Part shown: positions 27,433 through 61,049 of the stretch, piece after piece
Layout of the letters: every line of letters begins with the position of its first letter
Position numbering within the stretch: the stretch's first letter is position 1
Origin: Epinephelus fuscoguttatus
Taxonomy: Eukaryota > Chordata > Actinopteri > Perciformes > Serranidae
Assembly: GCF_011397635.1 (NCBI RefSeq)
Contig: NC_064756.1
Location: 35,502,996 to 35,566,995 of the forward strand
Reading direction: 5' to 3'
DNA length: 64,000 nt
Translations under genes and position numbers: made by a program
Notes under the pieces: generated by a model
What the model was told of the DNA's origin: nothing
The model's input: only the letters and a program-made list of their open reading frames with translations
Databases searched by the model: none

Positions 27433-27445
27433 ATGAATAATATTA

Positions 27446-39200: not shown

Positions 39201-39472
39201 AGTGACGATGATGAAACTGGTGACCACAATTTCACTTGGCCTTATTTTGGGATGTTCTTGTCTTTAAAGTCACTGTGAACAGCTCTCTCTCAGAGGGCTG
39301 CAGTAAGCTCCACAGAAGACAGAGTATAGGATTTGAACAGCATGGAGGATTTTGATGGGTAATATTCATCTTTACACCTCAGAAGTCCATTTTGAATGAC
39401 ATATATTTAATAACAACACTTTAATGGAATTTTGGCAGTTCCTCAAAGGCTTTGTTTAAAAAATATATATAA

Positions 39473-40437
39473 ATGGGAGATAACAACTCATTGATTGGTG
39501 GTGAGTCTTTACAGTGGCAGATCAATGACCGGGTCATTATTGTGCAGCTCCTGGTGATGATTTTTCTTTGCATCAACTTTTGCTCATCTTAACCTTTTTC
39601 AAAAGGAGTGTTTCTACAACTACACGCTACATCTTGTTTGCAGTTACACTACTGTCTGATAGCTTTGTATTACTCGTGACTGATGTCATCCTCATCTTAA
39701 ACTATTTTCAAATTCCCATGCATGTTTGGTTATGCATCATCATCTCTTTTCTGTTAATTCTGCATCTTTTGATCACACCAGTTACTCTGACAGCAATGAC
39801 CCTGGAGCGCTATGTGGCCATATGCATGCCCCTGCGTCATGGAGAGTTGTGCTCCCGTCACAGCACTGTGAACTGCATTCTAATAATTCATGGCCTCAGC
39901 TCTGTACCCTGTATTGTTGTCCTCTCTACTTTCTTTGCATCAGTCTCTCTTAGCTTTTATGAACAACACAGTGTATGTTCTGTTCAGATATTTCTTGTGC
40001 ACAGGTGGCAGAAACATCTTAGGTCAGCTCTAAATCAGTTTTACTTCTTGATTATGTGTATTACTATTGTATTCTCCTATGTTAAAATACTGAAAGTAGC
40101 TAAAACTGCATCAGGAGAGAATAAAAAGTCAACATGGAAAGGACTCAGAACAGTAATTCTTCATGCTTTCCAGCTGCTGCTCTGTCTCATCCAGCTGTGG
40201 TGTCCATTCATAGAAGCTGCTCTACCTCAGATTAATGTCAATTTGTTTAATACTGTCAGGTATTTTAACTACATAATGTTTAGTCTTGTTCCAAGATGTC
40301 TGAGTCCTCTCATTTATGGCCTCAGGGATGAAAAGTTTTTTCATGCTATAAAAAATGTCTGCTTTGGCTTATGTACAAAAAGCATTTGGAAAGGTAGATT
40401 AATTATTTCTGAACAGAGAAATGTATTTATTAAATAA
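39473..40437 (+). pseudogene. Odorant receptor (OR131-like), copy B, one net frameshift
   Basis: From the ATG at 39473 the frame reads a normal N-terminus to VIIVQLLVMIFLCINF, where one T is missing (about 39578) relative to copy A. The next frame (39568-40437) then runs without a stop through TM2, MTLERYVAICMPLRH, TM5, LRTVILHAFQLLLC, SPLIYGLRDEKF and the C-terminus EQRNVFIK. Two nearby deletions (one T and two bases near 39596-39617) together cost one codon. So a single frameshift separates this copy from an intact receptor of about 320 residues. It may be a recent pseudogene or a base-count error; the conserved motifs argue that it was recently functional. Confidence 0.88.
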
Positions 40438-42920
40438 AAAGCACCAGAAATTCTGCTGTGCATGTTGCAATTCACCCACGTGTTTTCTTTATGACTAGTT
40501 TATTCTTATAATCCCAACTGTGATTACATTTCTTTTTAAGCAACAATTCAAGCTCAACACTGTTGTACTTTTGTATTCTTGCATCATTGTTCATATGAGG
40601 TGACTACTTTCAGGTTTTCTTTGCCCTTTATGTTAAGTTAGATGTAATATTGCGTATAGGCCCTTGTTGCGTTTAAACTTGTGTACTTCTGATCAGTCTT
40701 CCCTTAGATGAGTGAGCTTCAGTTGTCCTCATGGAATATACAGCTTTATTACAACACAAATATGATCTTAAAAAAAGCTTTTGGCACAGCACGTGTGCAA
40801 TGACAGAGATATTCTAAAAACTTAAAGTAACATTACGTTCACTGAGCCTTGAACAGTGTATCCCAGGTCATACAGAATCACACATCCATAGAGGAGAAAA
40901 AAGCATGTTGTGTAAGCCTTGGTCCAGACTGCTTGGTGGAAACAAATTTGACATACTGGATAAAGTGGACAATGTATTACAGGAAATAAATCATATGCCA
41001 CATACTTACCTTTTTTTTCCCCTTACATCCTTCACACACTAAAATATATGCTTAACTAAAATGTATTCAGAGAAAACCTATTAACATTTATCCACTCACA
41101 CCACTGCACCCTTCTTTCCATTTTGGAGAACATACAGAAAATTTGTAGTACATTTAATCAAGTATGAAACTAAAAGATGCATTGCTGTAGATTAAACAAC
41201 AGGACAGTGTATAAAAAAGTTAATATCAACACAAATACAAAACACACATTAATGTACTTTTAATTTAAAACATTCTGTATGATGGTAAAACACTGACAGG
41301 GACCATTTTTCTGCACAATGAGTACTTCCTCCATCCTTTAAGTAAATTTATCTGATAATATTACAAGTGTAGTCGTGCAAAATTAAAAGAGTGCCAAGAC
41401 TAATGGCCTTCGACTCATGGAAGGAGCCCCGGTGCATTGGGTCACTCATGCATCTTGGATTTTTCTCAAAACCAATATCATCAGAAACCATTACTTTCCC
41501 CAGCACAGAGAATCTGCTGCACCCCTTACTAGACCGAGTGCATTTTGACCTTCTTCACCTTTTGTTTTTAACATTTTGTTGTTTTTGCTGACAAAGAGAA
41601 AATCTAATAAAAGGATGTTTAGGTCCTAGTTGCCTCTGTCTGTGTGCTTTTGAGGCAGCATTGTACAACAGCCTGGGGTGTAGCTTTTCTTGTGACAACA
41701 ACTTTGGCCATCATTCACTTTTCATCTGGTGCCATCGTCCAGTCAAACTTTAAACTTGATTAGTACTTTGGTCTATGACTGAATACTTCCACAACTATCG
41801 ACACATCAGCATTAGCTAGTGCTAATTAGCAAATGCTAGCATACTAACTAATATGAACAGAGATGGCATACCTGGTAATCATTATGGCATCAGGATGATA
41901 ACTTGCCATTGTGAGCAGGCTAGCATGCTGACATTAGCATTATCTTGAAGCACTACAGTGCCCAGGTTCAGCCTCACAGAGCCACTAGTCTGCTGTACAC
42001 TCTTAGCACTATTATGTGTTAGTCAAAGGTGCAGATTTCACAAGGTGCAAGATACAGAACATGTACCCAATTTTTAATTAAGGGAAATGGAATGCTAGTA
42101 CCATTTTGCATTCTTACAACACAGGTAACTACAACAGATGTTTCCTCTAGGCCCGTACACACCATCAAGTGTGAGCTTGACTTTCCAAGGGAAAAAGTTT
42201 GGACACCTTTGCTTCAGAGGAGGGCTCATCAACTAAAGGGCCAGAAATTTTCTAAGCTGACACTTCGGGATCAGACTTTCAAATTATACATGTATGTGGG
42301 TGCCTGTTTATGTTTTGAAATAACATGAAAAGATATATTATCGGTGGAGGGTCTGGGGACCCTACTCCAGGAAAAAAAAATGTGATTAAAACAAATTTTC
42401 TGAACTTCTACCACCTGTACTCACGAGATTAGTTCGCTTGATGGTGTTATGAAAATCAAGGATGTATCAGTTATGTACAGTACAGTATGATTGGGTGGGC
42501 CCTAAACTGAGAGTATAATCATAATAATCTGGGGAGGAATCTACCATTTGGCCTCCAACTTAAAGGGCCCAAACAGTTACATAACTCTATTATGATGTTC
42601 AGATATGGAAAATACTGAATTATGTTACTGTTCTAACTCTTTGTACCCCACTCTCCAACATTATAGAAAAATTAAAAGCTCCTCTTTGAACAGACTTGCT
42701 GAGTTGGTGAGGCCTATCTGAGAAATGCCTTGCCTGATGGTTTTGTGAGAGCATCCCCAAGCTTATAGGCAGGTGGTAGGGACCCTGCCACTGTGGTCCA
42801 CACACACCCTTCCTGCAGTGGGGCAGAGTCCGCAGCCTTGTTGGGCAGGGTGAGTGTCCAGTACATATGGACAGCAGTGTTATGGTTTACACCCAGTCTG
42901 TTCATACAGGACATGTTGGG

Positions 42921-43293
42921 CTCTTTTCAGTGTCTGTGCTCACTGGAACAACACAGAAGTGGTGAAAAGGGGCTGAGTATGATACACTTGCATGTTCCTG
43001 TGCTCCTTGATGACCTGGAGAATGTGGCATGCAGGGTGTCTTTTGCTTGTCTTTTGACCCCTGCAAGGTCAGGCCATGGCTCGACCTGGTTCAGGTGCAT
43101 ACCTGGGTTAGCTGGGGGCCCCTACCTCTCTGCTGGGGTGGTGTGGTAAAGAAGTAAAGAAGTAGGTGGGCTGCGGCGACTAACCTTTAACGTGTCAGGA
43201 TCAGTGTGGCAGGGTCAATGTTATATTATGACAGGGTCCATGGCTTCACCCAGTTTACTGATATCCACTTGGACTCAACAATGAACTGATTAC
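42921..43293. other. Sequence present only in copy B
   Basis: After ACATGTTGGGCT the copies differ until ACTTTGTGGTCAAAGG. The extra bases include CCTGCAAGGTCAGGCCATGG and end in ATCCACTTGGACTCAACAATG, the word of the 34290-34850 repeat. Because that repeat word normally precedes the TCAAAGGTCA block, a deletion in copy A is as likely as an insertion here. Confidence 0.7.
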
Positions 43294-44365
43294 AACTTTG
43301 TGGTCAAAGGTCAAAGATAACTGTGACCTCAAAAAAACAGATGCTAATCAAATGTCTAATTGGATAAAATGGGTGATTAAATGAGTGATGACATTTTCCA
43401 CACAAAGGGTCAAAGGTCAACTTCAGTATGAAATCATAATGTTCTAAAAAGTCATTTTTTCTGGGTGTAGTTTAACATGTTAACTCAGGAACAGAAGGGG
43501 AGACATTTGGTCAGACAGTGAATTGGTGACACTAATCTTGGGTGTCCACCTTGAAACTGCGCTGATCGTATAGATCATCTGTGCTGCCAGGTTGAAGATG
43601 TGTGATGCATCCATGTTTCACCCAAAAATACACTTAATATCTTTTATTAAATTCCTTCAAAGTTTTCACTGCTTATATCGTCTCAGTGTGGACAGACATG
43701 GACATAAACTGCAATTTAGCAAACAACTGTGAGGTGGTAAATCTGCTTTAGTGTAACAGATTGTTTCTCAACTGGTGTTCATGAATGTAGAGGAACAGCC
43801 TCTCTGGACTTCCCTTCAACCAGTATTATCAGTGAACAAGACAACAAGACACCACCGGAGGGTCAAGTGTTTAGGACTCACCCCTGTATTTCCCCGACTG
43901 GACAAAAACTTCTTTCAGCCATCCTTAGGCCAAAAGGAGGTAAAAGTCACTTGGGATCCTCAAGTTTCAGATGCCATCTTAAAGTATCCAGCCTTGGGGT
44001 AAAACGCGTGATGAACGACCCACTAGTTGTCGTGAGACAATGCTTTTTTTCTCGGCCACATCCTGTCTATTCATGTAGCCTTGGGGAAATTCCGCCCTCC
44101 CCTCTCTTACCAAATGTTTCTGTGTCACAGAATTGAAATGTCTGTTGGAAGTGAAATTATACATTTTATCCATATTATGTGTTTGGAGTTGTAAAATATA
44201 GTTGCATTTGTTAATCAACCTGTTTTCATGAATATGTGCTTTCTCATTTTGTTTTTCATTATATGTTGCCACTATAGGTTAGTCTAGAGTGTGTGTATTT
44301 GAAGCAATTTATACTTTGCTGATACACGTGGTATAATAATTGTATTCATTTTAATTGGATGTTAA

Positions 44366-45967
44366 AGGGATAGTTCAACATTTTGGCAAATGTGCCTATT
44401 GCTGTAATCCCTATAGTCATATGAGTAGGTACATTACCTTTAATTGTCAGTGCGTGCTGTTCTGAGATCAGTGGGACAGTGCTGCCCGCTGAAATGGAGG
44501 TGAATGGTACAGGTCCTTCTCTCCCTCAAAACTAATCAAATACACCATCAAATGACTCCAAAAGGCTCTAGTGGAAAACACATGGCTTGCGCATTCTCCA
44601 CGCTATGAAATAATAATGTATAATTAAGTAACATTACGACACATGAAGCAAATACTCGGAACTACTTTCTTAAGTAAACCACTGGGTGGAGTGACACAGT
44701 GCGACCTGAGACAGTGCCGTTGTTATTGCTTGTAGCCATTAGCGGTATCGTCAGCTGAACACACCAGAAGGTTTGAGGAAAGTTTACAAGTGTTTTTGTA
44801 AATCATGGTTTACACATGTATAGTAAAAGGTTGCAGTCAAGACATAGAGCAAAGTGAAGTTTCACGTAGTTCCAACCAGTAATACGGACAGGATGAAATA
44901 ATGGCTATTTGTGCTGGACATCGACCCCAACATGCCTGTGGAAATGGTTCGGAAAATGTTTATGTGCTCCGGCCATTTTTTACTGGAGGACTACGCTGAA
45001 AGGATGGAGCGCAGAAGCTCAGGAATGTTTCAAATGCTTTTCTTGAAAGATAGTGTCATACCATCTGTCGGCATCACAAAACGAGCAGACGTGGTAAGTG
45101 ATCGTTATGTATCTTGCTCAGAAATCTCTCTGCTGTAACGTTACGTCCATGTTGAGTAACATTAGCCTACAACCCAAGCATGGTAAATAAGGCTAAAATG
45201 CAAATGTTGTTGTGGTTATGTTATGGATAAGTGCTTGCCCAGAGCATATAGTGAAGTGACTGGCATTACTTCTCATTGTTGGGAATAAACAGACTGCTAG
45301 GGAACATTTTATGTTGTTGTTCCCTCAGGAGTTGTGGTGATTTATGAGTGTGGAGTTAGCATGTTCTCCCCGTGTTCCGGTGATTATTTTGAGGCGTACT
45401 CTATATTTATATTGCACAGGTGTACCTAATAAAGTGGCCAGTAAGCCCCACATTTACACTACCGGCTCTGGGTCTCCCCTCAGCCCCTGGTTGCTCGGCA
45501 GCCTCAGCCTCTCTTCTTGCTCTCTCTTCTTCCAAAACCTGTAACTCTTCCTCTGTATATTCTGGCTTCTTCTCAACAAACTTGTTGTTTTGATGACGCA
45601 AGTAACTGTACTAAACATATGCTGTTTGAAATCACTCCGCCCAGCAAGTACTGTATGTCTGGAATGTAGGTCCCGGCTGTGCATTTGGCTTCAAAACAAC
45701 TCTGTCTCGTAATATTACATTATTATTTCATAGCGTGGTGAATGTGTAAGCTACAAGTTGTCCACAAGAGCGTTTTGGAGTCATTTGATGGTGTATTTGA
45801 TTAGTTTTGAGGCAGAGAGGGACCTGTGTTCACCTCCATTTCAGCGGGCAGCTCTGCCCCACCGATCTCAGAACAGCACGCACTGACAGTTAAAGGTAAT
45901 GTACCTACTCATATGACTATAGGGATTACGGCAATAGGCGAATTTGCCAAAATGTCGAACTATCCCT
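44366..45967. mobile_element. Kolobok-like DNA transposon (copy B)
   Basis: Same element as 11023-12628, between TTAA sites at 44362-44365 and 45968-45971. The THAP exon (about 44805-45103) is more decayed: eight bases are missing after GGTTGCAGT, shifting the frame, and the TAA before TGGCTATTTG remains. Confidence 0.75.
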
Positions 45968-46537
45968 TTAAGAACCGATTTCGACCATAATGAGAAAAGT
46001 GTGTGCCTATCGCGTAACATTTCAAAGTATATGATCTTGTATGATAATGTAGCACCCTTAGTCTTGACTTTTAGGTTTAATGGATACTCATATCGCTCTA
46101 GGTCCGGTAGGAGTTGCACCAGGAAGTGACTCACAAAAGGGAGTGGGTGTTGGCATTTGAACAGGTGATATTTTAATATCAATGCAAAACAAATGATATA
46201 CATCAACAGCTTGGCTGTGCATTTATTTACCAAAATAAGGCGCCATAAAATAAAAGAAAACCAAAAGAAGAGTCCATAGAACCCAAGCTCTCCTGCTCGA
46301 AGGGTTCTGGTAAGGTCAGCTCAAGAAAAAAAAAGGATCCAATGTGTGTGTATGTGTGTTCTGTGTATCAATGTCCATTCAGTTTCTTTTGTCCTCAATT
46401 TCTATAACTACTACCCGGGTAGGTGAGGAGTGTGTGTGTCTTATCTGTTCTCAGAGTGTGAGATTCAGATGATCTGGAGTCGTCAAGGTAGGTTCTGCAG
46501 CTGGCCACACTGCATCTCCAACTCACTCTCAGAATCG

Positions 46538-46637: not shown

Positions 46638-46906
46638 CACTCAGCCATTTAGAATAATATGTGGGTTGCAACTGATGCCCCCGCACACCGTATTAAAAGT
46701 GGGGCATTTGTCAGTGAAACGTGTCAAGTCACAGTGGCAGCGGCTCTCCGTTGTTAATATGAAGACAGTCAGTGAGTAGAGACAAATCTTAAATTGTTGA
46801 CTTTAGTTTGCGGATATTTATGATGGATGCACTGTATGTTTTGAAACCTTCTGAAGGTCGCCAACGTGCCGGAAAAAACACAGCAGATTACGACCAGTCG
46901 GCGCGG
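46638..46906. repeat. snRNA array unit, upstream segment (unit 1)
   Basis: Nearly identical to 53848-54113. In unit 1 it continues into the U2 promoter region; in unit 2 it is cut by a LINE at 54114. The distance between the two copies is 7210 bp, or about 2.05 kb once the LINE in U1 is removed. Confidence 0.9.
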
Positions 46907-47160: not shown

Positions 47161-47347
47161 ATCGCTTCTCGGCCTTTTGGCTAAGATCAAGTGTAGTATC
47201 TGTTCTTATCAGTTTAATATCTGATACGTCCCCTACCCGGGGACCATATATTAAATTGCTTTTTGGAACAGGGAGATGGAAAAGGGGCTTGCCCCGTCCA
47301 CTCCACGCATCGACCTGGTATTGCAGCACTTCCAGGAACGGTGCGCC
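47161..47347 (+). ncRNA. U2 spliceosomal snRNA
   Basis: Begins ATCGCTTCTCGGCCTTTTGG and continues through AAGTGTAGTATCTGTTCTT, which contains the branch-point recognition sequence GTAGTA. The Sm-site region reads GCTTTTTGG, one base from the usual ATTTTTGG, then AACAGGGAGATGG. The 3' hairpins end CTTCCAGGAACGGTGCGCC. The 187-base length agrees with vertebrate U2. U2 pairs with the intron branch point in the spliceosome. It is transcribed by RNA polymerase II from a TATA-less promoter; the first 500 bp downstream of the gap must hold this. Confidence 0.96.
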
Positions 47348-47366
47348 CCCCCCCCCCTCCCTTAAC

Positions 47367-48326: not shown

Positions 48327-48369
48327 ATACTTACCTGGCAGGGGAGATACCATGATCAAGAAGGTGGTT
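48327..48369 (+). pseudogene. U1 snRNA, 5' half
   Basis: ATACTTACCTGGCAGGGGAG then ATACCATGATCAAGAAGGTGGTT is the first 43 bases of U1, including the ACUUACCUG that pairs with 5' splice sites and the start of stem-loop I. The usual CACGAAG of loop I reads CAAGAAG, a change in the region bound by the U1-70K protein. A LINE follows at once; the rest of U1 lies at 53526-53651. Confidence 0.95.
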
Positions 48370-48468
48370 CACTTCACTTCATTGCAGTCGAGCGGTGTAG
48401 GGGGCGCAATCAAGTGCTTGTGGACGATTTGTGGCTTACTGATCAACTTGGTCTATTCTTTTTAAGTA

Positions 48469-49923
48469 ATGGCTTCGGTTTTAGCTGGTTCCCGTAGGAA
48501 TGCAGTTCGTTTCGTGCTCCTTGAAAATCTGGAAATGGACAGGCTACAGTTCAGCCGGAACGTCATCCAGAAGGAACTGGGATTTACACCTCCACAACTG
48601 GATTACGTCTTTGCCTTGCCTGGAAAAAAGATTTTTGAGGTAATCTTTGCTACCTATACCTTGTTTGAACAATGCCTTGAGCGCTACAACCAGAAGAAGG
48701 ATAACAACCCAAGACTGAGTAAAGTGCAGCTTATACCCCTTTCCGAGAGGGATGCAAAAACAGTTACTGTCATAATGTACTCTGAAAAAGTAACAACGGA
48801 AGACATTACTACATGGTTGTCTTTCCAATGCACTGTCTTACGATCCATGGAGCTGAGAGATGAAGATGGTATCAGAACTGGGGCTAGACGCTTCTATGTT
48901 TGGCTGAAGACTGATGGGGACTCCGGGAGACTCCGCCACCTGCCTTCCACTATCCAACTGGGACCAATAAGAGGCCATGTTTTCTATGCTGGGCAGCCAA
49001 AAACCTGCAGGAAATGTGGCTCTTCATCCCACCTGGCAGCTGATTGTAACACTACCTTCTGCAGAAACTGCCAACGTGCTGACCATTACACCAAAGACTG
49101 TGATCAACCAATGAGATGTAATTTATGCGGATCAAACAGTCATACATTCAGGGGTTGCCCCGCGTCATACGCAAATAGGACCAGACGTTTTGATCCTGCT
49201 TTCCAACACCCTGAACCCCCACCAGCAGAGGAACAACAAGACCTTCAGGAGCCGGACAACAATGACAACGAACCAAGACCCTCTGCCCACAACCAGCCAA
49301 GACCTGGTGACCAGCAGCAACTGGTATCTGCGGGCCAGGGAAGCCTGGAATCTACTGGCGAAGGAACTCAGCAGTGCTCAGAGTCTGGAGTTGAGGACAA
49401 GTCCTGCCAGTCGTCCGCTCACTGTCAACTAGACCAGCCAGCTTCTGAACCCCAGGAGATGCGGCGGTCCCAGGAGGATCTCCCAGCAGGCCAACTAGGG
49501 CAGGCACCTGTGGAGAAGGCTCCTGTCTCATCCAAAGACTGCAGAGATCTCCTGGACCTTATGCTCGCAGACCTGCCCCCTACAGGTAGCTCAACCAGCA
49601 CCTCTCAGGGACTTAACCAAGTCCCAATGGGGGATATGGAGGTTCCTCCTTCTCCCCCATCATTCCCCAACGTCTTCCTGGAGACGACACCATCCCGAAA
49701 ACGCGCCCAGAAAACATCAAGTGATTCTGCTACCCCAAGCCCAGATTTGGAGGTATGGTCTGACCTTTTGCCCACTTCCCCCCCTTTCTTGGATCCCCAG
49801 AGCCTGTCTGCATTTTCTCTTGCCACCCAAATGAGCAGTGGCATGGGGGAAGCAGAGGGGGACTGGAGAAAACAAAAGAAAAAGAAAAAGAAAAGGACAA
49901 AACCTCCGTCCCCAATGGTATGA
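48469..49923 (+). CDS. LINE ORF1 protein with three CCHC zinc knuckles
   Basis: A 484-residue open protein beginning MASVLAGSRRNAVRF, about 100 bases after the element's 5' edge. Residues 1-170 resemble the N-terminal domain of Tx1-type ORF1 proteins only in general layout. Three CX2CX4HX4C knuckles follow at 180-193, 198-211 and 217-230, which would bind RNA or single-stranded DNA. The remainder is rich in Pro, Gln, Glu and Ser, with a DCRDLLDLMLADLPP motif shared with the LINE at 54114, and ends in a lysine-rich tail (RKQKKKKKKRTKPPS). No stop interrupts it. It would coat element RNA as a ribonucleoprotein and may aid target recognition. ORF2 starts 41 bases after the stop. Confidence 0.9.
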   Translation: MASVLAGSRRNAVRFVLLENLEMDRLQFSRNVIQKELGFTPPQLDYVFALPGKKIFEVIFATYTLFEQCLERYNQKKDNNPRLSKVQLIPLSERDAKTVTVIMYSEKVTTEDITTWLSFQCTVLRSMELRDEDGIRTGARRFYVWLKTDGDSGRLRHLPSTIQLGPIRGHVFYAGQPKTCRKCGSSSHLAADCNTTFCRNCQRADHYTKDCDQPMRCNLCGSNSHTFRGCPASYANRTRRFDPAFQHPEPPPAEEQQDLQEPDNNDNEPRPSAHNQPRPGDQQQLVSAGQGSLESTGEGTQQCSESGVEDKSCQSSAHCQLDQPASEPQEMRRSQEDLPAGQLGQAPVEKAPVSSKDCRDLLDLMLADLPPTGSSTSTSQGLNQVPMGDMEVPPSPPSFPNVFLETTPSRKRAQKTSSDSATPSPDLEVWSDLLPTSPPFLDPQSLSAFSLATQMSSGMGEAEGDWRKQKKKKKKRTKPPSPMV

Positions 49924-49964
49924 TTTTTACTGTAGGCCCTTGATTCCCATAACACCAAACTGCA

Positions 49965-52900
49965 ATGTCATCAATTAAAATTGTCACTATTAACACTAGA
50001 GGTCTTAATGACCCTGTTAAGTGCCAGTCCGTGTTCAATTTCTTGCACAGAGGTGGGGGGGACATTTTCCTTCTTCAAGAGTGCTCCATCTCCTTCAAAG
50101 ACAATTACAAACTGTATGAAAACAGATGGGCACATGGACAGTCAGTGTGGTCAGGGGACAACAAGAACAGAGCCTCTGGTTTGGTTATCCTTTTCAACAG
50201 CCAACTTTTCCACATTCAGAGGGTTGAGAGGGTCATAGATGGAAGACTGCTGTTGGTGGATGTTGAGGGAAAAGGAGCTAAATTTAGGATCATAAACATT
50301 TACTGCCCTACTGACACTCAAGATCGTATAACTGTAATACAGGCTATTCAACCTCTAATTCACTGTGGGAGGGAAGTTATTATTGGGGGTGATTTCAATT
50401 GTCTTGTGGACATAGCAGACAGAAAATCCACCTCTCCTGTGAGATTAGATGGCAGCTCCTATGTACTTCAGAATATGCTCAAAGACTGTAAACTTGTTGA
50501 CACCTATAGAAAAAAAAATCCCAATACACCAGGGTATACCTGGTCAAATGGGAGAACCTTCTCCCGTATAGATTTCCTGTTCACCACACGAGGAGTCACA
50601 CCAGTGAACTGTACAATTGAACCAGTGCCTTTCTCAGACCACCACAAACTGGTCTGTTCAATAGAAATCTCCAGTTCCTTTAAGTCAGGGCCAGGCATTT
50701 GGAAACTCAACACAAGCTTATTAGACAATCCAGAGGTAGTCACAAGATATAGGGACAAACTTAACCAGTGGTTCACTTTGCAGTCCTTGTTTGACTCCTT
50801 GGGAGAGTGGTGGGAGGACATCAAATGCAAAACAAAAAAGTTTTTCATGGCAGAAGGCAAAAAAGCAGCAGCAAAGAAACGAACTCTTCAAAAAAGGCTG
50901 CAGGCTAAGTTGCAACGTTACTACCTCCTTTCTCTGTCTGGTTTTGAGGTAAATGAGGAGATAGCAAAACTCAAAAAAGACATGATGAAGTTGTACAATG
51001 AAAAGAGTAGAGGGGTCCTCACAAGAAGTAGGGTTCAACACTTAGAAGAAAATGAAAAGTGTACCCGTTACTTTTTCAACAAACTGTCCAGATCCAGACA
51101 TTGTATTGAAGCCGTGTTAGATAGAGAGGGGAAGGAAGTGAGTGACCAACAAGATGTACTTGGGGTTGTCAGGTCTTTCTACCATGATCTCTATCAAGAT
51201 AGCACCATATCTGAACAGTCAATTAGTTTCTTTCTGTCACACTTAACAACAAAACTCAACAATACAGATAGAGAATTTCTTGAGAGGGACTTGACGATCA
51301 ATGAGTTAACGAAAGCTATGCAGAGCATGCAGAGCAACAAATCTCCTGGTCTGGACGGTCTACCCAAAGAGTATTATAGCACCTTTTGGGACCAGCTTAA
51401 AGATCCTCTGCTACAAGTTTTTAACGAGAGTTTCTCTAGAGGTACACTACCCCCTTCACTAAGAACAGGCTCTATCTCCCTCCTTGTTAAAAAAGGGGAC
51501 AAAAAAGACTTGAAGAACTGGAGACCTTTAACCTTGCTTGGAGTGGATGTTAAAATCCTGTCAAAGGCCCTTTTTTTCCGAATGCAACCAGTAGTCCACC
51601 AACTAGTCAACATAGATCAAACATGTGGAGTAGTAGGCCGGTCCATGTCTGACAGCCTAGCCTTAGTTAGAGATTCATACCTGTTTGCCCAAGATCGTCA
51701 TCTTCCACTCTGCATTCTTGGGCTAGACTTGGAGAAAGCTTTTGATAGTATTAGTCACCAGTACCTTAAAGCTGTTTTGAACCAGCTCAACTTCGGTAAT
51801 ACTTTTCGAACCTGGGTAGACCTGCTCTATGCAGACATCTCTAGTGCAGTTTTGGTAAACGGTAAATACACAGACCCGTTTAAAGTAAAATCAGGTGTAC
51901 GACAGGGCTGTTCTCTCTCCCCTGCATTGTTCGTACTAGCAATCGAACCTCTCGCATGTCTTTTAAGGCAAAAGAAAAATATCAGAGGCCTCCCAATTCC
52001 AGGGGCATTGGGTAAGGAAGCAAAACTCAGTCTGTATATGGACGACCTAACCCTCCTTCTCACAGATAATAAGTCGGTAAGAGACACTCTAGCTATTTGT
52101 GAAGAATTCAGTGCAGCATCAGGAACAAAAGTTAATAAAGAAAAATGTGAAATACTCTACCTCAACTGGAAAGAGCCAGTGGAACACCTAGGCCTTATAG
52201 AAAAAAAAGATACAATCAAAGTTTTAGGGGTACAGATTGGAAAAGACATGGAAAATATTAACTGGGAGTCAAAATTACCAAAAATTAGAGGAAAACTCAC
52301 TCAATGGCAAGACAGGGATCTATCAATAACAGGGAAAGTACTAGTCATAAAAACTGAAATCCTTGCACCCCTGACTTTTCTGGCTACCACCTTTCCAATC
52401 CCACATAGGTTCATGATGATAATTAGAAGAATGGTTTTCCAGTTTATATGGGACGGGAAACATGAGAAGCTTAAACGTGAAATAATGTGCAGGCCATTGG
52501 AGATGGGGGGTAAAGGTGTCCCAGACATTGAGAACAAACTAAAGGTGATGTTTGTGACCCCCATTCTAAAAGCCTGCTTGAAACCTGAAGCGGGTCCAAG
52601 CTGGGCTCACTTTGCTCTGTTTTGGGTGGGGCGGGGTGTGCTTAGAGCGTGGGGGAAAAGGCCACCACAAACCATTCCATATGCACAGACATGGCCAAAG
52701 ATCTACGATATAGTATTTTCATGTCTAAAGAAAGGTGTATCTCAACTCGCTCATGACAAAATCACAAGAAAGGGTATAGAACAGGCCTTGTCCCCATCTC
52801 TCTCAAGGTTAACTCCCGTGGGCACATTAACAGAAGAGGACTCAAAAATGGCATGGGTTAATGTTAATAACTCCATCTTAACAAATACCCATAAAGACTT

Positions 52901-53372
52901 AGCTTGGCAAATTGTCCATAAGTGTTTACCCACGAGAGCTTTCCTTGAGAGAAGAAAATGCAGTCGCATTGCTAAGTGCCCTAGGCATTTTTGTAGTGAC
53001 AATGAAACTGTAGAACATCTCTTCTGGTCATGCCCCTTTGCGAAATGTGTGTGGTTGCTAGTATCACCATGGCTGAAAAATTTGTATAAAGCTCCCATCT
53101 GTTATGAAGAAATAGCTTATGGTTGCTTGCAAAAAAATTCAACAACTAAGGTTAAAAAATGGTGGGTTGTTATTAACTGTGTCAAAGAGAGTCTGTGGAA
53201 AGCAAGAAATGTATGTGTTATGAAAAAGTATTGTATGTCAGAAAAAATTGTAATAAGAACTATGTTAAACATTTTTAAGGACTATCTGTTAAAAGACACA
53301 ACAGCAACAGAAATGAAAACAAAATTGCTATTATGGAAGGTGCCACAAACCACATGGTTTGATCATATTTAG
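49965..53372 (+). CDS. LINE ORF2: endonuclease and reverse transcriptase
   Basis: An open 1135-residue protein. Residues 1-230 form an apurinic-type endonuclease: INTRGLND near the start, LLQE with Glu39, GGDFN with Asp143 and Asn145, and SDHH with Asp225 and His226. The reverse transcriptase follows, with NKSPGLDGLPKEYY, WRPLTLLGVDVKILSKAL, LDLEKAFDSI, GVRQGCSLSPALFVLAIEPL and the catalytic YMDD at 691-694. Near the C-terminus is a Cys/His cluster (CSRIAKCPRHFC...EHLFWSC). It would nick the target and prime reverse transcription from the nick. YMDD replaces the more common YADD and is shared with the two downstream copies. With an intact ORF1 it appears potentially active. Confidence 0.94.
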   Translation: MSSIKIVTINTRGLNDPVKCQSVFNFLHRGGGDIFLLQECSISFKDNYKLYENRWAHGQSVWSGDNKNRASGLVILFNSQLFHIQRVERVIDGRLLLVDVEGKGAKFRIINIYCPTDTQDRITVIQAIQPLIHCGREVIIGGDFNCLVDIADRKSTSPVRLDGSSYVLQNMLKDCKLVDTYRKKNPNTPGYTWSNGRTFSRIDFLFTTRGVTPVNCTIEPVPFSDHHKLVCSIEISSSFKSGPGIWKLNTSLLDNPEVVTRYRDKLNQWFTLQSLFDSLGEWWEDIKCKTKKFFMAEGKKAAAKKRTLQKRLQAKLQRYYLLSLSGFEVNEEIAKLKKDMMKLYNEKSRGVLTRSRVQHLEENEKCTRYFFNKLSRSRHCIEAVLDREGKEVSDQQDVLGVVRSFYHDLYQDSTISEQSISFFLSHLTTKLNNTDREFLERDLTINELTKAMQSMQSNKSPGLDGLPKEYYSTFWDQLKDPLLQVFNESFSRGTLPPSLRTGSISLLVKKGDKKDLKNWRPLTLLGVDVKILSKALFFRMQPVVHQLVNIDQTCGVVGRSMSDSLALVRDSYLFAQDRHLPLCILGLDLEKAFDSISHQYLKAVLNQLNFGNTFRTWVDLLYADISSAVLVNGKYTDPFKVKSGVRQGCSLSPALFVLAIEPLACLLRQKKNIRGLPIPGALGKEAKLSLYMDDLTLLLTDNKSVRDTLAICEEFSAASGTKVNKEKCEILYLNWKEPVEHLGLIEKKDTIKVLGVQIGKDMENINWESKLPKIRGKLTQWQDRDLSITGKVLVIKTEILAPLTFLATTFPIPHRFMMIIRRMVFQFIWDGKHEKLKREIMCRPLEMGGKGVPDIENKLKVMFVTPILKACLKPEAGPSWAHFALFWVGRGVLRAWGKRPPQTIPYAQTWPKIYDIVFSCLKKGVSQLAHDKITRKGIEQALSPSLSRLTPVGTLTEEDSKMAWVNVNNSILTNTHKDLAWQIVHKCLPTRAFLERRKCSRIAKCPRHFCSDNETVEHLFWSCPFAKCVWLLVSPWLKNLYKAPICYEEIAYGCLQKNSTTKVKKWWVVINCVKESLWKARNVCVMKKYCMSEKIVIRTMLNIFKDYLLKDTTATEMKTKLLLWKVPQTTWFDHI

Positions 53373-53525
53373 TCTATATTTAGTAGATGCAAACCATGTT
53401 TTTTTTGTGATGATTCTAAATTTTAAACTGTAAAACGTAAATGTAGTGATGTAAAAGTAATTGTGTGATTGTTATATTACCCTGCACTGAATTCAATAAA
53501 CGTCTAAAAATTGAAAAATTGAATT

Positions 53526-53651
53526 GGTTCGCCCAGGGCGAGGCTCGGTCATTGCACTCCGATTGCGCTGACCTCTGCGAATTCCCCAAATGCGGGAATC
53601 TCGACTGCATAATTTCTGGTAGTGGGGGACTGCGTTCGCGCTCTCCCCTCA
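53526..53651 (+). pseudogene. U1 snRNA, 3' half
   Basis: GGTTCGCCCAGGGCGAGGCT and the following bases through ATTGCACTCC, AATTTCTGGTAGTGGGG (Sm site) and GACTGCGTTCGCGC continue U1 where 48369 stopped. The two halves sum to about 165 bases, the length of U1. A G is missing in CTCCGATTGCG compared with the usual CTCCGGATGTG, so the gene is altered as well as split. Confidence 0.95.
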
Positions 53652-53847
53652 TGTGCTTGTTTAATGCAACCAACAGCCGTAGCAGCATATGGCGCTAGAG
53701 AACCACCTGCATCAAACGCCATTGCACGCTCACTCACAGGCTTTGCCCTTGCCCGCTGTGTCAATGCAAGTCGGTACCGCATCACTTCACGTCTGTGCCA
53801 CTACTGAAGAAGCAAAAGAAGCTCCTATGATATTGTTATATCCTCAC
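53652..53847. other. U1 downstream spacer
   Basis: Short GC-richer spacer with no gene seen. It probably has a counterpart hidden in the gap before 46638. Confidence 0.5.
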
Positions 53848-54113
53848 ACTCAGCCATTTAGAATAATATGTGGGTTGCAACTGATGCCCCCGCACACCGT
53901 ATTAAAAGTGGGGCATTTGTCAGTGAAACGTGTCAAGTCACAGTGGCAGCGGCTCTCCGTTGTTAATATGAAGACAGTCAGTGAGTAGAGACAAATCTTA
54001 AATTGTTGACTTTAGTTTGCGGATATTTATGATGGATGCACTGTATGTTTTGAAACCTTCTGAAGGTCGCCAACGTGCCGGAAAAAACACAGCAGATTAC
54101 GACCAGTCGGCGC
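53848..54113. repeat. snRNA array unit, upstream segment (unit 2)
   Basis: Near-identical to 46638-46906 up to GACCAGTCGGCG, where the LINE at 54114 begins. The U2 gene expected about 260 bp further on is not present. Confidence 0.9.
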
Positions 54114-54509
54114 AGACTGAGGACTGAGCTCCAGGAGGACCTGCCACACGGCCAACCAGACTCGGCCCCTGAGGAGTGCCGCCCACCCAGTGCCACACCA
54201 TCTGACTGCAGAGACCTTCGAGACCTCCTAGACCTAGGCCTCCAAGACCTGCCCTCCCCAGGTGGTGCTGCAAGCTCTTCCATCCTCTCCTCGTCCAACG
54301 AGAGCACACCACCTTTGAAACGGCCCAAGGGGATCTCAGGGACCCCTTCCATCAACGTCCCAGATGTAGAGGTATGGTCCAACGCCCCACCCCCCTCTAC
54401 CCCCTTTCTAGACCTCGAGGCTCTGTCTGCTTTTTCTGCAACCACCCATATGGGTGGCTCCCGAAAAGATAAGAAGAAAAGGAAGAAGCAGAAACTAGTC
54501 TGTGCTTGA
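54114..54509 (+). pseudogene. LINE ORF1, C-terminal part
   Basis: About 131 residues, in frame to TGA at 54507: TELQEDLPHGQPDSAPEECR, SDCRDLRDLLDLGLQDLPSP, a PDVEVWSNAPPPSTPFLD motif and a lysine-rich end, all alignable to the end of the ORF1 at 48469. The zinc knuckles are missing, so it cannot bind RNA as the full protein would. Confidence 0.88.
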
Positions 54510-54580
54510 ATAGCTTGAACCTGTATAAATTCCTCATGCTAAGCTGCCCCCTGACCCCTGCATTCCACTTTCTTCTCTTC

Positions 54581-57500
54581 ATGACTTCTCTCTCTGTTGC
54601 TTCACTCAACACCAGAGGGCTGAATGATCCCCTAAAATGTCTTTCAGTCTTTACTTTCCTACAAGCAGAGCCTAGTAACATCTTCATGGTACAAGAGTGT
54701 AATATCCCATACAGAGATAATTATAGAGAATTTGAAGAAAGATGGACTTATGGACAATCAGTGTGGTCTGGTGACAACCAAAATAGGTCATCTGGCATCG
54801 GGATTCTTTTTAAAGGTCCTAACTTTATTGTGCAAAAGGTGCAGCGCATCAGGGATGGGAGGATTTTGTGTGTTAATGTCTCATACCTCAGCGTTAATAT
54901 GAGAATAATTAATGTGTATTGTCCAGCTGAGCTTAAAGAGCGTCTAGAGACCATGAAAGAGATACAGCCATTATTGTTGTGTAGCAGAGAGGTAATCCTG
55001 GGGGGAGACTTTAATTGTCTGGTTGAAAAAGAAGACCGTTTATCTACTACTGCTGTCAAACTTGATTCTAGCTCCATCGCCTTGAATAATCTTATCCAGG
55101 ATTTCAACCTCACAGACACATACCGTTCCATAAACTCCAACTCACCTGGTTTTACATGGTCCAATGGCAAAACACATTCAAGAATTGATTTTCTGTTTAC
55201 CTCAAAGAGCTTGCAGGTCTCCCAAGCCACAGTTAAGCCGGTCTTCTTTTCTGATCATGCACTTCTTAACTGCTCTCTCGTCTTAAAAAATGTGACAGAA
55301 CGAGGTAAAAGCTCTTGGAAGCTGAATGTTTCTGTACTGCAAGATGAAGGGGTGGTTAGAAGATTTAAGAAAAAGTTATCTCTCTGGTCTTCTCTTCAAT
55401 TCGCCTTTGACTCCATTGGGGAATGGTGGGAGGATGTGAAAGGTAGAGCTAAGTCATTTTTCATAGAGGAAGGTAAAAGAGCAGCAAAGAGGAAACGCTT
55501 TAAGCTAAAAAAACAGCAGGCTAAGTTGCAGCGTCTTCATTTATTATCTCATGCTGGCTGGGATGTAGCCGATGAAATAACTATGCTAAAAAGAGAAATG
55601 CTAAACGCCTCCGCAGAAGCTAGCCGTGGCTTGCTAACACGCAGCAGATTACAACATATAGAAGCAAATGAAAAGTGCACAAGATATTTTTTCAGAAAAC
55701 TAGCACAACCTAGAAATGTCATCGAAGCACTTTACGATAGCAATGGTAATGAAAAGACTGAAACGAATGATATACTTACCTGCGTTCACTCCTTTTACTC
55801 AGATCTCTACAGATCTGAGGAGATAGATGAAACAGCCATGTCACAGCTCCTGTCAAAAATAAATAAGAAAATAACTGATGTTAATGGAAAACTTGAAATG
55901 GAACTGTCTGTAGAGGAACTAACAAAAGCAATGAATAGTATGGCAAACAACAAAGCCCCGGGGTCAGACGGCCTGCCAAAAGAATTCTATGTGACCTTTT
56001 GGGAAGAATTAAAGGGCCCACTTCTTGAAATGTTCAATGAGAGTTTGAGTATTGGAACATTACCATCATCCCTTAGAGAAGGCTCCATCACTCTCTTGTT
56101 CAAAAAGGGAAACAAAAAAGATATAAAAAATTGGCGCCCCCTCACACTACTTGGGGTCGACCGCAAAATTTTAGCAAAAGCACTTTTCTTCCGTTTACAC
56201 GAAGTAATAGATCAGATTGTAGGAGTAGAACAGACTTGTGTAGTATCAGGCCGAAGTATGGGTGACAGTCTCGCCCTGGTGCGAGACTCTTACCTATACG
56301 CAGTAGACCGCAAGCTTCCTCTCTGCATATCAGGCCTAGACTTAGAAAAGGCCTTTGACAAAATTAACCATGATTATTTTAAAAGAGTTTTGTTGAGTTT
56401 TGGTGTTGGTCCTCAGTTGAGGGCCTGGATCAATCTCTTGTACACTAACTGTTTTAGTAAGGTTGTTGTGAATGGCACTCACACTGCTCCCTTTAAGGTA
56501 CAGGGTGGGGTTCGACAAGGTTGCCCTCTATCTGTTATTTTGTTTATTCTTGCGATGGAGCCTCTTGCTTGTGCGATCAAACAAGATCCCTCTATCCATG
56601 GCTTGCTTGTTCCGGGGTGTGGAGGGAGGGAAGCCAAAGTGTCACTGTACATGGACGACTTGACTATTTTATGCTGTGATAACAGATCTGTTTTTAATAG
56701 TCTCAGATGGTGCGATCTCTTCTCTCGTGCCTCTAGGGCTAAACTAAACAGGGCCAAGAGTGAGATCTTATATCTGAACTGGTGGGAGGGTAAATTGGAT
56801 CTTGGCCTGGAGGAAAAAACAGACAGAATAAAACTACTTGGGATTGAGATAGGGAGGGAGATGGAAACGGTAAATTGGGAACAAAGGCTCCCCAGAATAA
56901 AAGGGAAACTGCGCAGCTGGGAACAAAGAGATCTCACCATCACAGGGAAGGTCCTGGTCCTGAAGGCAGAGGTCCTGGCCTCCCTCACCTTTCTTGCAGC
57001 CACCTTACCAGTCCCCAGCTTCTTCCTCACTGCCCTGAGAAGAGCAATGTTCCAATTTATATGGGGCTCCCAGCAGGAATTATTAAAGAGAGACATTATG
57101 TACAGGCCTCTTGAAAAAGGTGGGAAGGCAGTACCTGATTTCAGCTCCAAACTTGATGCCCTGTTTCTTTGCCCAGTTATTAATGCGGTGTTATGTGATA
57201 GTGCCAGTCTATGCTCTAAGTTTGCAAAATTTTGGGTGGGTCGAGGGATTTTGGCTGGTATGGGTAAAAGGATTCCTCTCAACACGCCCCATTCAGAAAC
57301 GAGGCCCGCCTTGTTTGAAAGGGCTTTGACTCTTTTCAAATCTGCAAAGTTCGACAAGTCTCATTCAGGTCACATTAATAGAAAATCTGTTGAGAGGAGT
57401 CTTTCTGGCCATTCCCTATGCCTCGTGCCAGTGGGTACTTTTGTTGAATCACAATGCACCCAGATATGGAAAAATGTCAACGCCACATTCCTTTTCAACA

Positions 57501-57997
57501 GTCACAAGGATCTGGCCTGGAAGGCAGCACATGGCTGTCTCCAGACTAGATCCTTCTTACATAGAAGGAGATGCTCCAGAAGCGCAGTCTGTCCTAGATT
57601 GAATTGTCATGTCGACGAATCTGTTATCCATCTCTTTTGGGCCTGCCCCTTTGCACAAAGGGTGTGGGGAATTGTTGGCAGGTGGCTGACCTCTTTGCAC
57701 AGATATCCCGATGCTAATGATATATTGTATGGGGATATGGCTCCAAAAGAGACTGGAAAAAATGCAAAATGGTGGATTGCTATCAACTGTATAAAAGATG
57801 GAATGTGGAAATGTAGGAATTTACTGGCCTTTAAGAGAGTATATAAATCCCCAGAATCAGTTGTGAGGACTGGCCTCACTTTAGTTAAAGACTACATTCA
57901 GAGAGACAAAAAGAATCATACCTGTGAAGAATTAACTACATTATGGAAAATCCAAAATGGTATCATTAGAGAAATATTATATGATGTAATTTATTAG
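54581..57997 (+). CDS. LINE ORF2: endonuclease and reverse transcriptase
   Basis: Open frame of 1138 residues from the MTSLSVASLNTRG start at 54581; the frame is open from 54506, but those 25 extra residues are not seen in related copies. Endonuclease signatures are SLNTRGLNDP, VQECNIPYRDNY, LGGDFNCLVEKEDR, SRIDFLFTS and FSDHALLNCS. Reverse transcriptase signatures are NKAPGSDGLPKEFY, WRPLTLLGVDRKILAKALFF, GLDLEKAFDKI, GVRQGCPLSVILFILAMEPL and SLYMDDLTIL. The C-terminal Cys/His cluster (CPRLNCHVDESVIHLFWACPF) is present. It is clearly the same family as 49965-53372 but a separate lineage. It looks intact; the truncated ORF1 means it could move only with help. Confidence 0.93.
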   Translation: MTSLSVASLNTRGLNDPLKCLSVFTFLQAEPSNIFMVQECNIPYRDNYREFEERWTYGQSVWSGDNQNRSSGIGILFKGPNFIVQKVQRIRDGRILCVNVSYLSVNMRIINVYCPAELKERLETMKEIQPLLLCSREVILGGDFNCLVEKEDRLSTTAVKLDSSSIALNNLIQDFNLTDTYRSINSNSPGFTWSNGKTHSRIDFLFTSKSLQVSQATVKPVFFSDHALLNCSLVLKNVTERGKSSWKLNVSVLQDEGVVRRFKKKLSLWSSLQFAFDSIGEWWEDVKGRAKSFFIEEGKRAAKRKRFKLKKQQAKLQRLHLLSHAGWDVADEITMLKREMLNASAEASRGLLTRSRLQHIEANEKCTRYFFRKLAQPRNVIEALYDSNGNEKTETNDILTCVHSFYSDLYRSEEIDETAMSQLLSKINKKITDVNGKLEMELSVEELTKAMNSMANNKAPGSDGLPKEFYVTFWEELKGPLLEMFNESLSIGTLPSSLREGSITLLFKKGNKKDIKNWRPLTLLGVDRKILAKALFFRLHEVIDQIVGVEQTCVVSGRSMGDSLALVRDSYLYAVDRKLPLCISGLDLEKAFDKINHDYFKRVLLSFGVGPQLRAWINLLYTNCFSKVVVNGTHTAPFKVQGGVRQGCPLSVILFILAMEPLACAIKQDPSIHGLLVPGCGGREAKVSLYMDDLTILCCDNRSVFNSLRWCDLFSRASRAKLNRAKSEILYLNWWEGKLDLGLEEKTDRIKLLGIEIGREMETVNWEQRLPRIKGKLRSWEQRDLTITGKVLVLKAEVLASLTFLAATLPVPSFFLTALRRAMFQFIWGSQQELLKRDIMYRPLEKGGKAVPDFSSKLDALFLCPVINAVLCDSASLCSKFAKFWVGRGILAGMGKRIPLNTPHSETRPALFERALTLFKSAKFDKSHSGHINRKSVERSLSGHSLCLVPVGTFVESQCTQIWKNVNATFLFNSHKDLAWKAAHGCLQTRSFLHRRRCSRSAVCPRLNCHVDESVIHLFWACPFAQRVWGIVGRWLTSLHRYPDANDILYGDMAPKETGKNAKWWIAINCIKDGMWKCRNLLAFKRVYKSPESVVRTGLTLVKDYIQRDKKNHTCEELTTLWKIQNGIIREILYDVIY

Positions 57998-58350
57998 TCT
58001 GGAGAAGCGTCAAGTACATTAATGTACATTGCTGGTCCTTGCCTCATATTGTAATTATGCTTGTGTGAATGCGCTGTTGTAACCCCAGGTGAAAAAAGTA
58101 TTGGGAATTGGGAAAATGTATTCATATGGAATGTCTCCGTTTTCCTTGTATGGGCAGAAAATATCTGTATAAATTGTAAATTTTGTAGGTTGTACTTGTG
58201 ACATTTATTAATAAAAGCGTCTAAAAATTGAAAATTGAAATTGGTTCACTTCAGCAAGTAAAACTAGCCCCAGTTTGAGAAGCTTGTACCTATACAATCT
58301 CCATGTTGTTAATTTGGCCGTCTGAACCCCCCATTGTACTATTCTTCTCC

Positions 58351-59094
58351 ATGCTTTCTTTCTCTCTTGCTTCACTCAACACCAGAGGACTGAGTGACCC
58401 CACTAAGTGCCTTACTGTTTTCACCTTTCTGCAATCTGAGTCGAGTTACATTTTCCTTTTGCAAGAATGTAACATCCCATATAGAGACAATTATAAGAAC
58501 TTTGAGGAAAGATGGACTCATGGACAATCTGTTTGGTCTGGTGATAACAAAAATCGGTCATCAGGGGTTGCGGTCCTGTTCAGAGGGCCTGAGTTTAATG
58601 TGCAAAAGGTGCAACGCTTAAGTGACGGGAGGATGTTGTGTGTTGATTTCACATACCAAAATATTGATTTGAGAATTATTAATGTGTATTGCCCAGTTGA
58701 GCTTCAAGAGCGTCTAGAGACTATACAAGAGATACAGCCACTTTTGTTATGCAATAGAACAGTAATTTTGGGGGGTGACTTTAATTGCCTGGTCAGGAAA
58801 GAGAAGCGATCATCCCATACAGTTGGTAAATTGGATTCCAATTCCACAGCCTTGACTAACCTCATACAGGATTTCAGACTTACAGACTCATACTGTTCCC
58901 AAAACCCCAACTCACCTGGTTTTACATGGTCCAATGGTCGAACACATTCCAGAATTGACTTTCTATTTACCAAAAAGGGACTGCAGGTTACACAAGCCTC
59001 AGTCAAGCCAGTCTACTTTTCTGACCATGCATTAATCAACTGCTCTATTGTTCTAAAGAATGCAAAAAAAAAAAAAAAGAAAAAAGCTCCTGGA
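58351..59094 (+). pseudogene. LINE ORF2 endonuclease domain
   Basis: MLSFSLASLNTRGLSDP starts the endonuclease; LLQECNIPYRDNY, GGDFNCLVRKEKR, SRIDFLFTKKG and FSDHALINCS follow. The frame is lost at an expanded A run (about 59064-59085). From there to 59420 homologous codons continue in other frames with several shifts. Confidence 0.88.
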
Positions 59095-59422
59095 AGCTGA
59101 ACATTTCTGTGCTACAAGATGAATGGGTGGTTAGAAAATTTAAGGAAAAGTTAACTCAATGGTCTTCTCTTCAGTTTGCTTTTGACTCCATCGGGGATTG
59201 GTGGGAAGATGTGAAAGATAGAGCTAAGTCCTTTATTTGTGGAGGAAGGTAAAAAAGCTGCAAAGAAGAAACGCTTTATGCTAAAAAAACAACAACAGGT
59301 TAAGCTGCAACAACTTTAAACATTGTCTTATGCTGGCTGGAATGTGGTTGATGACATAAATGTGCTGAAAAAAGGAATGCTAAGCATATACTCAGAGGTT
59401 AGCCGTGGCCTTCTAACACGCA

Positions 59423-60970
59423 GTGTTAGAAGGCCAAGAAGAAAATGAAAAATGCTCTAGATATTTTTTCAGGAAACTAGCACAGCCTAGGAACATAATG
59501 GAAGCGCTATATGATAAAAATGGTAATGAAAAGACTGAAATGAATGATATACTTACCGGTGTTCACTCCTTTTACTCAGATCTCTACAGAACTGAGGAGT
59601 TAGATGAAGCAAAAGTAACTGATGTTAATGGAAAACTAACTAAAGCAGTGAATAGTATGGCAAACAACAAAGCCCCGGGGTCAGACGGCCTGCCAAAAGA
59701 ATTCTATGTTACCTTCTGGGAAGAACTAAAGGGCCCACTTCTTGAAATGTTCAACAAGAGTTTGAGTATTGGAACATTACCATCATCCCTTAGAGAAGGC
59801 TCCATCACTCTCTTGTTCAAAAAAGGAAACAAAAAAGATATAAAAAATTGGCGCCCCCTCACACTACTTGGGGTTGACCGTAAAATTTTTGCGAAAGCAG
59901 TTTTCTTCCGTTTACACGAAGTAATAGATCAGATTGTAGGAGTAGAACAGACTTGTGTAGTATCAGGCCGAAGTATGAGTGACAATCTCGCCCTGGTGCG
60001 AGACTCTTATCTGTATGCAGTAGACTGCAAGCTTCCTCTCTGCATATCAGGCCTAGACTTAGAAAAGGCCTTTGATAAGATTAATCATGATTATTTAAAA
60101 AGAGTTTTGTTGAGTTTTGGCTTTGGTCCTCAGCTGAGGGCCTGGATCAATTTTTTGTATGTTAACTGTTTTAGTAAGGTTGTTGTGAATGGCACTTACA
60201 CTGCTCCCTTTAAGGTACAGGGTGGGGTTCGACAAGGTTGCCCTCTATCTGTCATTTTGTTTATTCTTGCGATGGAGCCTCTTGCTTGTGCGATCAAACA
60301 AGATCCCTCTATCCATGGCTTGCTTGTTCCGGGGAGTGGAGGGAGGGAAGCCAAAGTGTCACTGTACATGGACGATTTGACTATTTTATGCTGTGATAAC
60401 AGATCTGTTTTTAATAGTCTCAGATGGTGCGATCTCTTCTCTCGTGCCTCTAGGGCTAAACTAAACAGGGCCAAGAGTGAGATCTTATATCTGAACTGGT
60501 GGGAGGGTAAATTGGACCTTGGCCTGGAGGAAAAAACAGACAATAAAACTACTAGGGATTGAGATAGGGAGGAAGATGGAAATGGTAAATTGGGAACAAA
60601 GGCTCCCCAGAATAAAAGGGAAACTGCGCAGCTGGGAACAAAGAGATCTCACCATCACAGGGAAGGTCCTGGTCCTGAAGGCAGAGGTCCTGGCCTCCCT
60701 CACCTTTCTTGCAGCCACCTTACCAGTCCCCAGCTTCTTCCTCACTGCCCTGAGAAGAGCAATGTTCCAATTTATATGGGGCTCCCAGCAGGAATTATTA
60801 AAGAGAGACATTATGTACAGGCCTCTTGAAAAAGGTGGGAAGGCAGTACCTGATTTCAGCTCCAAACTTGATGCCCTGTTTCTTTGCCCAGTTATTAATG
60901 CGGTGTTATGTGATAGTGCCAGTCTATGCTCTAAGTTCGCAAAATTTTGGGTGGGTCGAGGGATTTTGGC
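59423..60970 (+). pseudogene. LINE ORF2 reverse transcriptase part
   Basis: 59436-60540 encodes the reverse transcriptase with NKAPGSDGLPKEFY, GLDLEKAFDKINHDYL, GVRQGCPLSVILFIL and LYMDDLTIL. A deletion at about 59620-59640 removes about 22 residues present in the neighbour. A base loss at about 60540 (GACAATAAAAC for GACAGAATAAAAC) shifts the frame, after which ITGKVLVLKAEVLASLTF continues to 60970. A perfect 13-bp palindrome at 59407-59435 also replaces normal codons. Confidence 0.88.
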
Positions 60971-61049
60971 TGGTATGGGTAAAAGGATTCTCCTAAGTGC
61001 AAAATTAGTAAGAAAACCATTGCAACATACAGCATGCATGAAATAAGTA

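Follow-up and report, generated by a model that had tools for sequence, protein, structure and literature searches.

Why does a complete retrotransposon lie at an exact position inside a small nuclear RNA (snRNA) gene, and does this position reflect a choice of target by the element? The question is raised by a stretch of 64,000 nucleotides of the genome of the fish Epinephelus fuscoguttatus (contig NC_064756.1, here C5, C5:35502996-35566995, hereafter the window), in which a long interspersed nuclear element (LINE), named el1, interrupts a U1 snRNA gene. Judging from the sequence comparisons reported below, el1 very probably represents a family of LINEs, of the Tx1/Keno kind, for which a single exact position in U1 snRNA genes serves as insertion site.

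The interrupted U1 gene and its LINE

The arrangement given in a preliminary description of the window, namely U1 bases 1-43, a 5156-bp LINE with two open reading frames (ORFs), U1 from base 44 onwards and GGTT at both edges, proved exact to the base (Table 1). The left edge reads GGTGGTT/CACTTC and the right edge GAATT/GGTTCGCCC, leading to a target duplication of 4 bp, or of 7 bp with one mismatch. When the flanks are rejoined with a single GGTT, a U1 gene of 165 nt is obtained, with 1 difference in 165 nt to five of the seven complete U1 genes (C11) and with 5 and 7 differences to the remaining two (one on C11 and C5:35417161, respectively). The left half is identical to the left halves of intact U1 genes; in the Rfam search the right half scores above the cut-off and the left half below it. 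The approximately 130 nt upstream of the interrupted gene are ordinary U1 upstream sequence and closely resemble those of the C11 U1 genes.

The domain content of el1 is in agreement with a sequence-specific LINE. ORF2 matches Exo_endo_phos (endonuclease) and RVT_1 (reverse transcriptase, RT), its closest solved structures are those of LINE-1 ORF2, and ORF1 shows a weak match to the zinc knuckles of LIN-28. The matches to human L1 ORF2 end at residue 858, and the database relatives P0001-P0018 span 91-100% of the ORF2 query. ORF2 relatives with 76-83% identity are present in other public sequence sets. The listed relatives that bear a name are more distant in the case of a "pol-like protein" of Danio (39%) and a "reverse transcriptase" of Takifugu (36%), and no row among the listed relatives is labelled Tx1, Keno or Mutsu. 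Elements of the Tx1 clade combine an apurinic/apyrimidinic (AP)-type endonuclease, two ORFs, a CCHC motif in ORF1 and a zinc motif past the RT, and el1 has this same layout, so that the Tx1/Keno label is given for domain layout and not for likeness to named references. Endonuclease and RT in one ORF, a target duplication and a short 3' tail are further hallmarks of sequence-specific retrotransposons without long terminal repeats (non-LTR) that are present in el1. We file the el1 family as a putative sequence-specific LINE of the Keno/Tx1 kind with a new target gene. Searches of prokaryote genome contigs and viral contigs returned pattern matches, but no relative.

Distribution of the copies in the genome

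The preliminary description had proposed that the family is specific for U1, and that a majority of ORF2 copies bordered by GGTGGTT on the left and GGTTCNCCC on the right would support this. The genome (1.047 Gb, 26 contigs, labelled C5, C11 and so on) was searched in six frames with ORF2; the best 41 of 10,550 candidates were scored, giving 48 match rows, and the counts are lower bounds. Among the matches listed, all 22 rows of at least 34% identity fall inside two U1/U2 snRNA clusters, at C5:35.41-35.60 Mb and C11:18.84-18.88 Mb, and all 26 weaker rows (28-33%) are scattered elsewhere. Local search added further element pieces at C11:18.816-18.819 Mb, within the cluster. The Rfam search for U1, in which the best 42 of 13,439 candidates were scored, found at least 21 matches, 18 of them above the cut-off, and two of these 18 are the right halves of interrupted genes (C5:35556469 and C11:18870767).

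A second interruption, copy B, lies on the minus strand of C11 (approximately 18870894-18876225), flanked at its two sides by the left and the right half of a U1 gene. Its left edge reads GGTGGTTCGCCCAGG/TATATC and its right edge CTAAAAATT/GGTTCGCCCAGG, with a duplication of 12-13 bp. With 53% identity in ORF2, the two elements belong to different subfamilies and begin with unlike 5' ends, yet have the same 3' junction; the copies of the U1 subgroups in which the two edges are intact (2/2) are thus found at the same U1 junction. A common 3' junction with a differing second cut is as expected from target-primed reverse transcription, and is only consistent with it. That so divergent an element breaks another U1 gene at this very 3' junction makes chance an unreasonable account of the arrangement of el1 and U1. 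Two decayed copies come after U1 left halves, of bases 1-34 (C5:35447844) and 1-39 (C11:18850519). Moreover, the exact terminus AATAAA-CG(T/C)CTAAAAAT occurs five times in the fetched clusters, abutting the U1-type GGTTC in four cases and the U2 sequence ATCTGTTC in one. Besides el1 and B, two 3' ends located in tandem arrays adjoin the U1-type GGTTC. The copies are therefore concentrated at one position of a repeated gene, although they are few and one relative lies in U2. A U1-like pseudogene with an interruption of about 250 bp (C12:12259897) was rejected as a further case, being a decayed U1 without an insertion at the site.

Several observations weigh against this specificity. The genome-wide searches score the best candidates only, and just two copies of the U1 subgroups retain an intact edge on each side, the others being truncated, tandem or rearranged. 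The U1 upstream sequence at copy B is reduced to about 30 nt. At el1, the sequence from 53652, just past the U1 3' end, is unlike that of the C11 U1 genes compared, and the 3'-box region may therefore have been replaced. When the 5' part of el1 served as DNA query, two pieces outside the clusters were detected, an ORF1-like fragment (C23:8924828-8925465) with neither U1 nor ORF2 within the 9 kb fetched, and a 76-nt piece (C6:5326459-5326534) with neither of them in the fetched DNA. Element Y (C5, approximately 35456388-35461595, minus strand) ends in another tail, followed by the 5' untranslated region (UTR) of another element without GGTT. Finally, the 3'-terminus pattern has nine matches genome-wide, four of them outside the clusters (C13:22881156, C15:5289798, C22:33912613 and C23:9949466), the abutting sequence having been read for the five in-cluster matches; since a control with the reversed pattern gave 44 matches, these four may be due to chance. 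Among the matches listed, the flanks of the ORF2 copies in this genome nevertheless support the proposed specificity, through the cluster-bound rows and the junction common to el1 and B. The proposal needs amendment for the varying length of the duplication, for the C23 and C6 pieces, for element Y and for a close relative in U2.

U2-dwelling relatives and a heptamer common to both genes

This close relative, Kin_U2 (C5:35411848-35415946), sits between bases 37 and 38 of U2 and has a long duplication. Its 3' terminus, AATAAACGTCTAAAAAT, is the same as in el1, and its ORF2 is 50-60% identical to those of the U1-associated copies (54% to el1, 60% to B). In a tree of 31 rows, in which the target genes are known for the copies of this genome and not for the database proteins, Kin_U2 clusters with the subgroup of B (support 99/99), and el1 and Y form a separate subgroup (98/99). 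Because a U2-sited element joins only one of the two U1 subgroups in the tree, at least one change of target would have occurred inside the clade, in either direction. Such a change has a plausible route, since U1 and U2 genes adjoin in these clusters. In the C5 cluster, U2 is also occupied at its site by more distant elements, the one compared having 31-36% ORF2 identity to the U1 copies. A comparison of residues 1-240, with 13 differences between U1 and U2 elements, was set aside since the clade provides one U2 sequence only.

Both target genes contain the heptamer GATCAAG ahead of the insertion site. In U1 it covers bases 28-34 (48354-48360 in the gene interrupted by el1), 5-6 nt ahead of the site, and in U2 bases 25-31, 6 nt ahead. 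A run of this length in register, with a shift of one base allowed, was reached in 60 of 20,000 shuffles and in 123 of 18,875 U1/U2 site pairs, figures to be read with the fact that the sharing was spotted post hoc and is a single observation. The grouping of a close U2-sited relative with one U1 subgroup, and the heptamer common to the two genes, are new here.

These data could also be read more widely, as those of a looser family of snRNA clusters which recognizes an address common to U1 and U2 (GATCAAG followed by about 6 nt) and may use either gene; such a family would be an extension of the U1-site reading and is compatible with it. The position of Kin_U2 in the tree and the similar spacing of the heptamer in the two genes are in agreement with this wider reading, which we nonetheless regard as rather unlikely, each subgroup with a readable edge being found in one gene (el1, B, el4 and C11b in U1, Kin_U2 in U2) and the common heptamer being the post hoc observation mentioned above.

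Tandem copies and rearrangement of the clusters

Next to el1, a second element, el2, is followed by a defective third one, el3. In two tandem pairs, GGTTCACTTC or GGTTCGCCCAGGG separates the 3' end of one element from the 5' end of another. For the tandem copies el2/el3 and X/Y, either half of the target may have been enough, and either copy may have come first. Although on different chromosomes, el2 and B have an identity of 98.3% over an alignment of 4102 bp, in which 22 mismatches and 46 gap positions occur, and this near identity indicates that copies moved or were converted recently. ORF2 is open in el1 and el2 and broken in B.

Such conversion is the basis of another explanation, in which a generic L1-like LINE would have hit one U1 gene by chance, and recombination or gene conversion would then have copied it around the clusters. 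The clusters are indeed rearranged (a duplicated 267-bp block, mosaics, an assembly gap), and the identity of el2 and B could equally come from conversion. However, spread of a single insertion would hardly account for el1 and B, which differ in subfamily, in 5' end and in duplication (4-7 against 12-13 bp) and share the 3' junction, and all the listed ORF2 rows of at least 34% lie within the snRNA clusters. The comparison of el1 with B largely refutes this scenario, which we consider very improbable. An assembly artefact, in which LINE reads would have been joined onto a collapsed U1 repeat, is hardly credible. Despite the repetitive nature of the clusters and an N gap into which one of the tandem elements runs, there are two loci on two contigs with a target duplication at each, and the relatives of 76-83% identity come from other public sequence sets.

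A hairpin in the 5' UTR

Seven elements bear, close to their 5' end, a motif able to form a hairpin. Five of them have U1-subgroup sequence, one of these being preceded by another element instead of U1, and two are of the U2-dwelling type. In an alignment of six sequences, 90.1% of the cells are paired, both partners vary in six of the pairs (a number reached in 2 of 500 shuffles), and covariation scores 0.429, compared with 0.195 +/- 0.041 in shuffles (reached in 0 of 500). The stability of the single-sequence folds is not unusual (z from -1.9 to +0.5). Since the outer stem barely forms in K1, which is one of the two U2-dwelling elements, and the sequences are few and related, the evidence for a covarying hairpin conserved in U1- and U2-dwelling LINEs is suggestive only. 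Outside el1 the motif was located at C11:18876187 (minus), C5:35447915 (plus), C5:35455854 (minus), C5:35586317 (minus) and C16:24507447-24512466.

Genome-wide, the core of the hairpin has 7 exact matches and 23 with one mismatch; the reversed control has 18. Hairpins with different stems also contain some of the matches outside the clusters, for instance in an array at C16:24507447, and the core is therefore not limited to these LINEs. Rfam found no family except U1 at the 5' end of el1, up to E = 1, and none at the gathering threshold for six off-cluster loci.

Other features of the window

An intact U2 gene belongs to the same cluster as el1. A block of 267 bp upstream of it (46638-46904) recurs with 100% identity at 53847-54113, behind the interrupted U1 and immediately ahead of el2. 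Two segments of about 12-13 kb that lie upstream of the snRNA genes (89-13191 and 34727-46530) are duplicates of each other and align in three blocks of 97.8-98.8% identity. Pieces of distant L1/Tx1-like LINEs, with 34-45% identity to ORF2, are present on the minus strand at 61469-63232 and 26596-27639. Beyond the window, a piece of the el1 ORF2 (residues 275-491, 96-98% identical) adjoins a U2 fragment at C5:35588659-35589306, and apparently arose by recombination.

Table 1. Position of the snRNA genes, LINEs and associated features in the window.
Feature	Position	Strand	Remarks
Intact U2 snRNA gene	47161..47351	+	Rfam RF00004; site of U2-dwelling relatives 47197/47198; GATCAAG 47185-47191
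U1 snRNA left half, bases 1-43	48327..48369	+	ATACTTACC...GAAGGTGGTT, read directly
GGTT target duplication, left copy	48366..48369	+	4 bp, or as many as 7 bp (GGTTCRC) if one mismatch is allowed
el1, full-length non-LTR retrotransposon	48370..53525	+	5156 bp
5' UTR hairpin	48374..48417	+	conserved loop GWGCGGTGTANGG; core motif 48385-48406
ORF1, open	48469..49923	+	484 aa; two ZCCHC3-type RNA-binding domains
ORF2, open	49965..53372	+	1135 aa; AP-type endonuclease, RT, C-terminal zf-RVT
el1 3' terminus	53495..53525	+	AATAAA, CGTCTAAAAAT, short tail
GGTT target duplication, right copy	53526..53529	+	
U1 snRNA, base 44 (53530) to about its end	53530..53651	+	Rfam RF00003, 94.5 bits
el2, 5'-truncated, second U1 subfamily	54127..58242	+	ORF2 54581-57955, open; GGTTC after 3' end
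GGTT, then el3	58243..60990	+	defective, tandem behind el2, cut off on 3' side

Relation to known elements

LINEs specific for small-RNA genes are known in fish, Mutsu being specific for 5S rRNA genes; el1 shares this type of target but differs in the gene. The preliminary description left open whether a LINE that targets U1 is on record; the absence of such a record agrees with a 2015 paper, where the LINEs targeting snRNA genes are U2-specific only (PMC4640811). Our literature search found no U1-targeting LINE among the matches listed; Repbase and most subscription journals were outside its scope, and a later description is possible. In that same paper, Keno is a LINE with an AP-type endonuclease that targets U2, and Utopia a LINE with a restriction-like endonuclease that targets U2 with occasional tandem insertions (PMC4640811). 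A Keno-like element is present in U2 in the same cluster (C5:35441562-35446876, with U2 bases 38-55 on both sides), whereas el1 and B lie in U1 and have only 36 and 34% ORF2 identity to it, respectively. Compared with Utopia, the el1 family shares an snRNA gene target and tandem insertions, but its endonuclease is of the AP type and its target is U1. Two further papers describe Dada-U1 as a DNA transposon with a DDE transposase and a 6-7 bp duplication at CTGCGAAT (PMC3706591, PMC8869645); it shares the U1 target with el1, at another position of the gene and as another kind of element, el1 bearing RVT_1 and Exo_endo_phos. Membership of el1 in Keno, Utopia or Dada-U1 was rejected on account of its U1 target, its AP-type endonuclease and its RT, respectively.

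Proposed mechanism and significance

In the mechanism that we propose, the AP-type endonuclease of ORF2 would nick the bottom strand at a point between bases 39 and 41 of U1, and the freed end would prime reverse transcription of the element RNA from its 3' end (AATAAA-CGYCTAAAAAT and a short tail). A top-strand cut 4-13 nt further on could then produce the duplications of 4-7 or 12-13 bp. ORF2 itself would read the U1 sequence, and GATCAAG may be part of the address. The element lies behind U1 +1 to +43 in the same orientation, and the U1 promoter may drive el1. Beyond the U1 site itself, we put forward tentatively, as a possibility that we hold with less than even confidence, that the LINE clade uses the common address (GATCAAG and 5-6 nt) and has switched between U1 and U2 at least once. 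In this reading the element would be copied from the U1 promoter of the host, and the common 5' UTR hairpin would serve a step shared by U1- and U2-dwellers.

The snRNA genes are low-copy targets. A U1 family with a close U2 relative is a natural test of the residues and DNA bases that set the target choice of LINEs, a choice of use for site-specific gene insertion.

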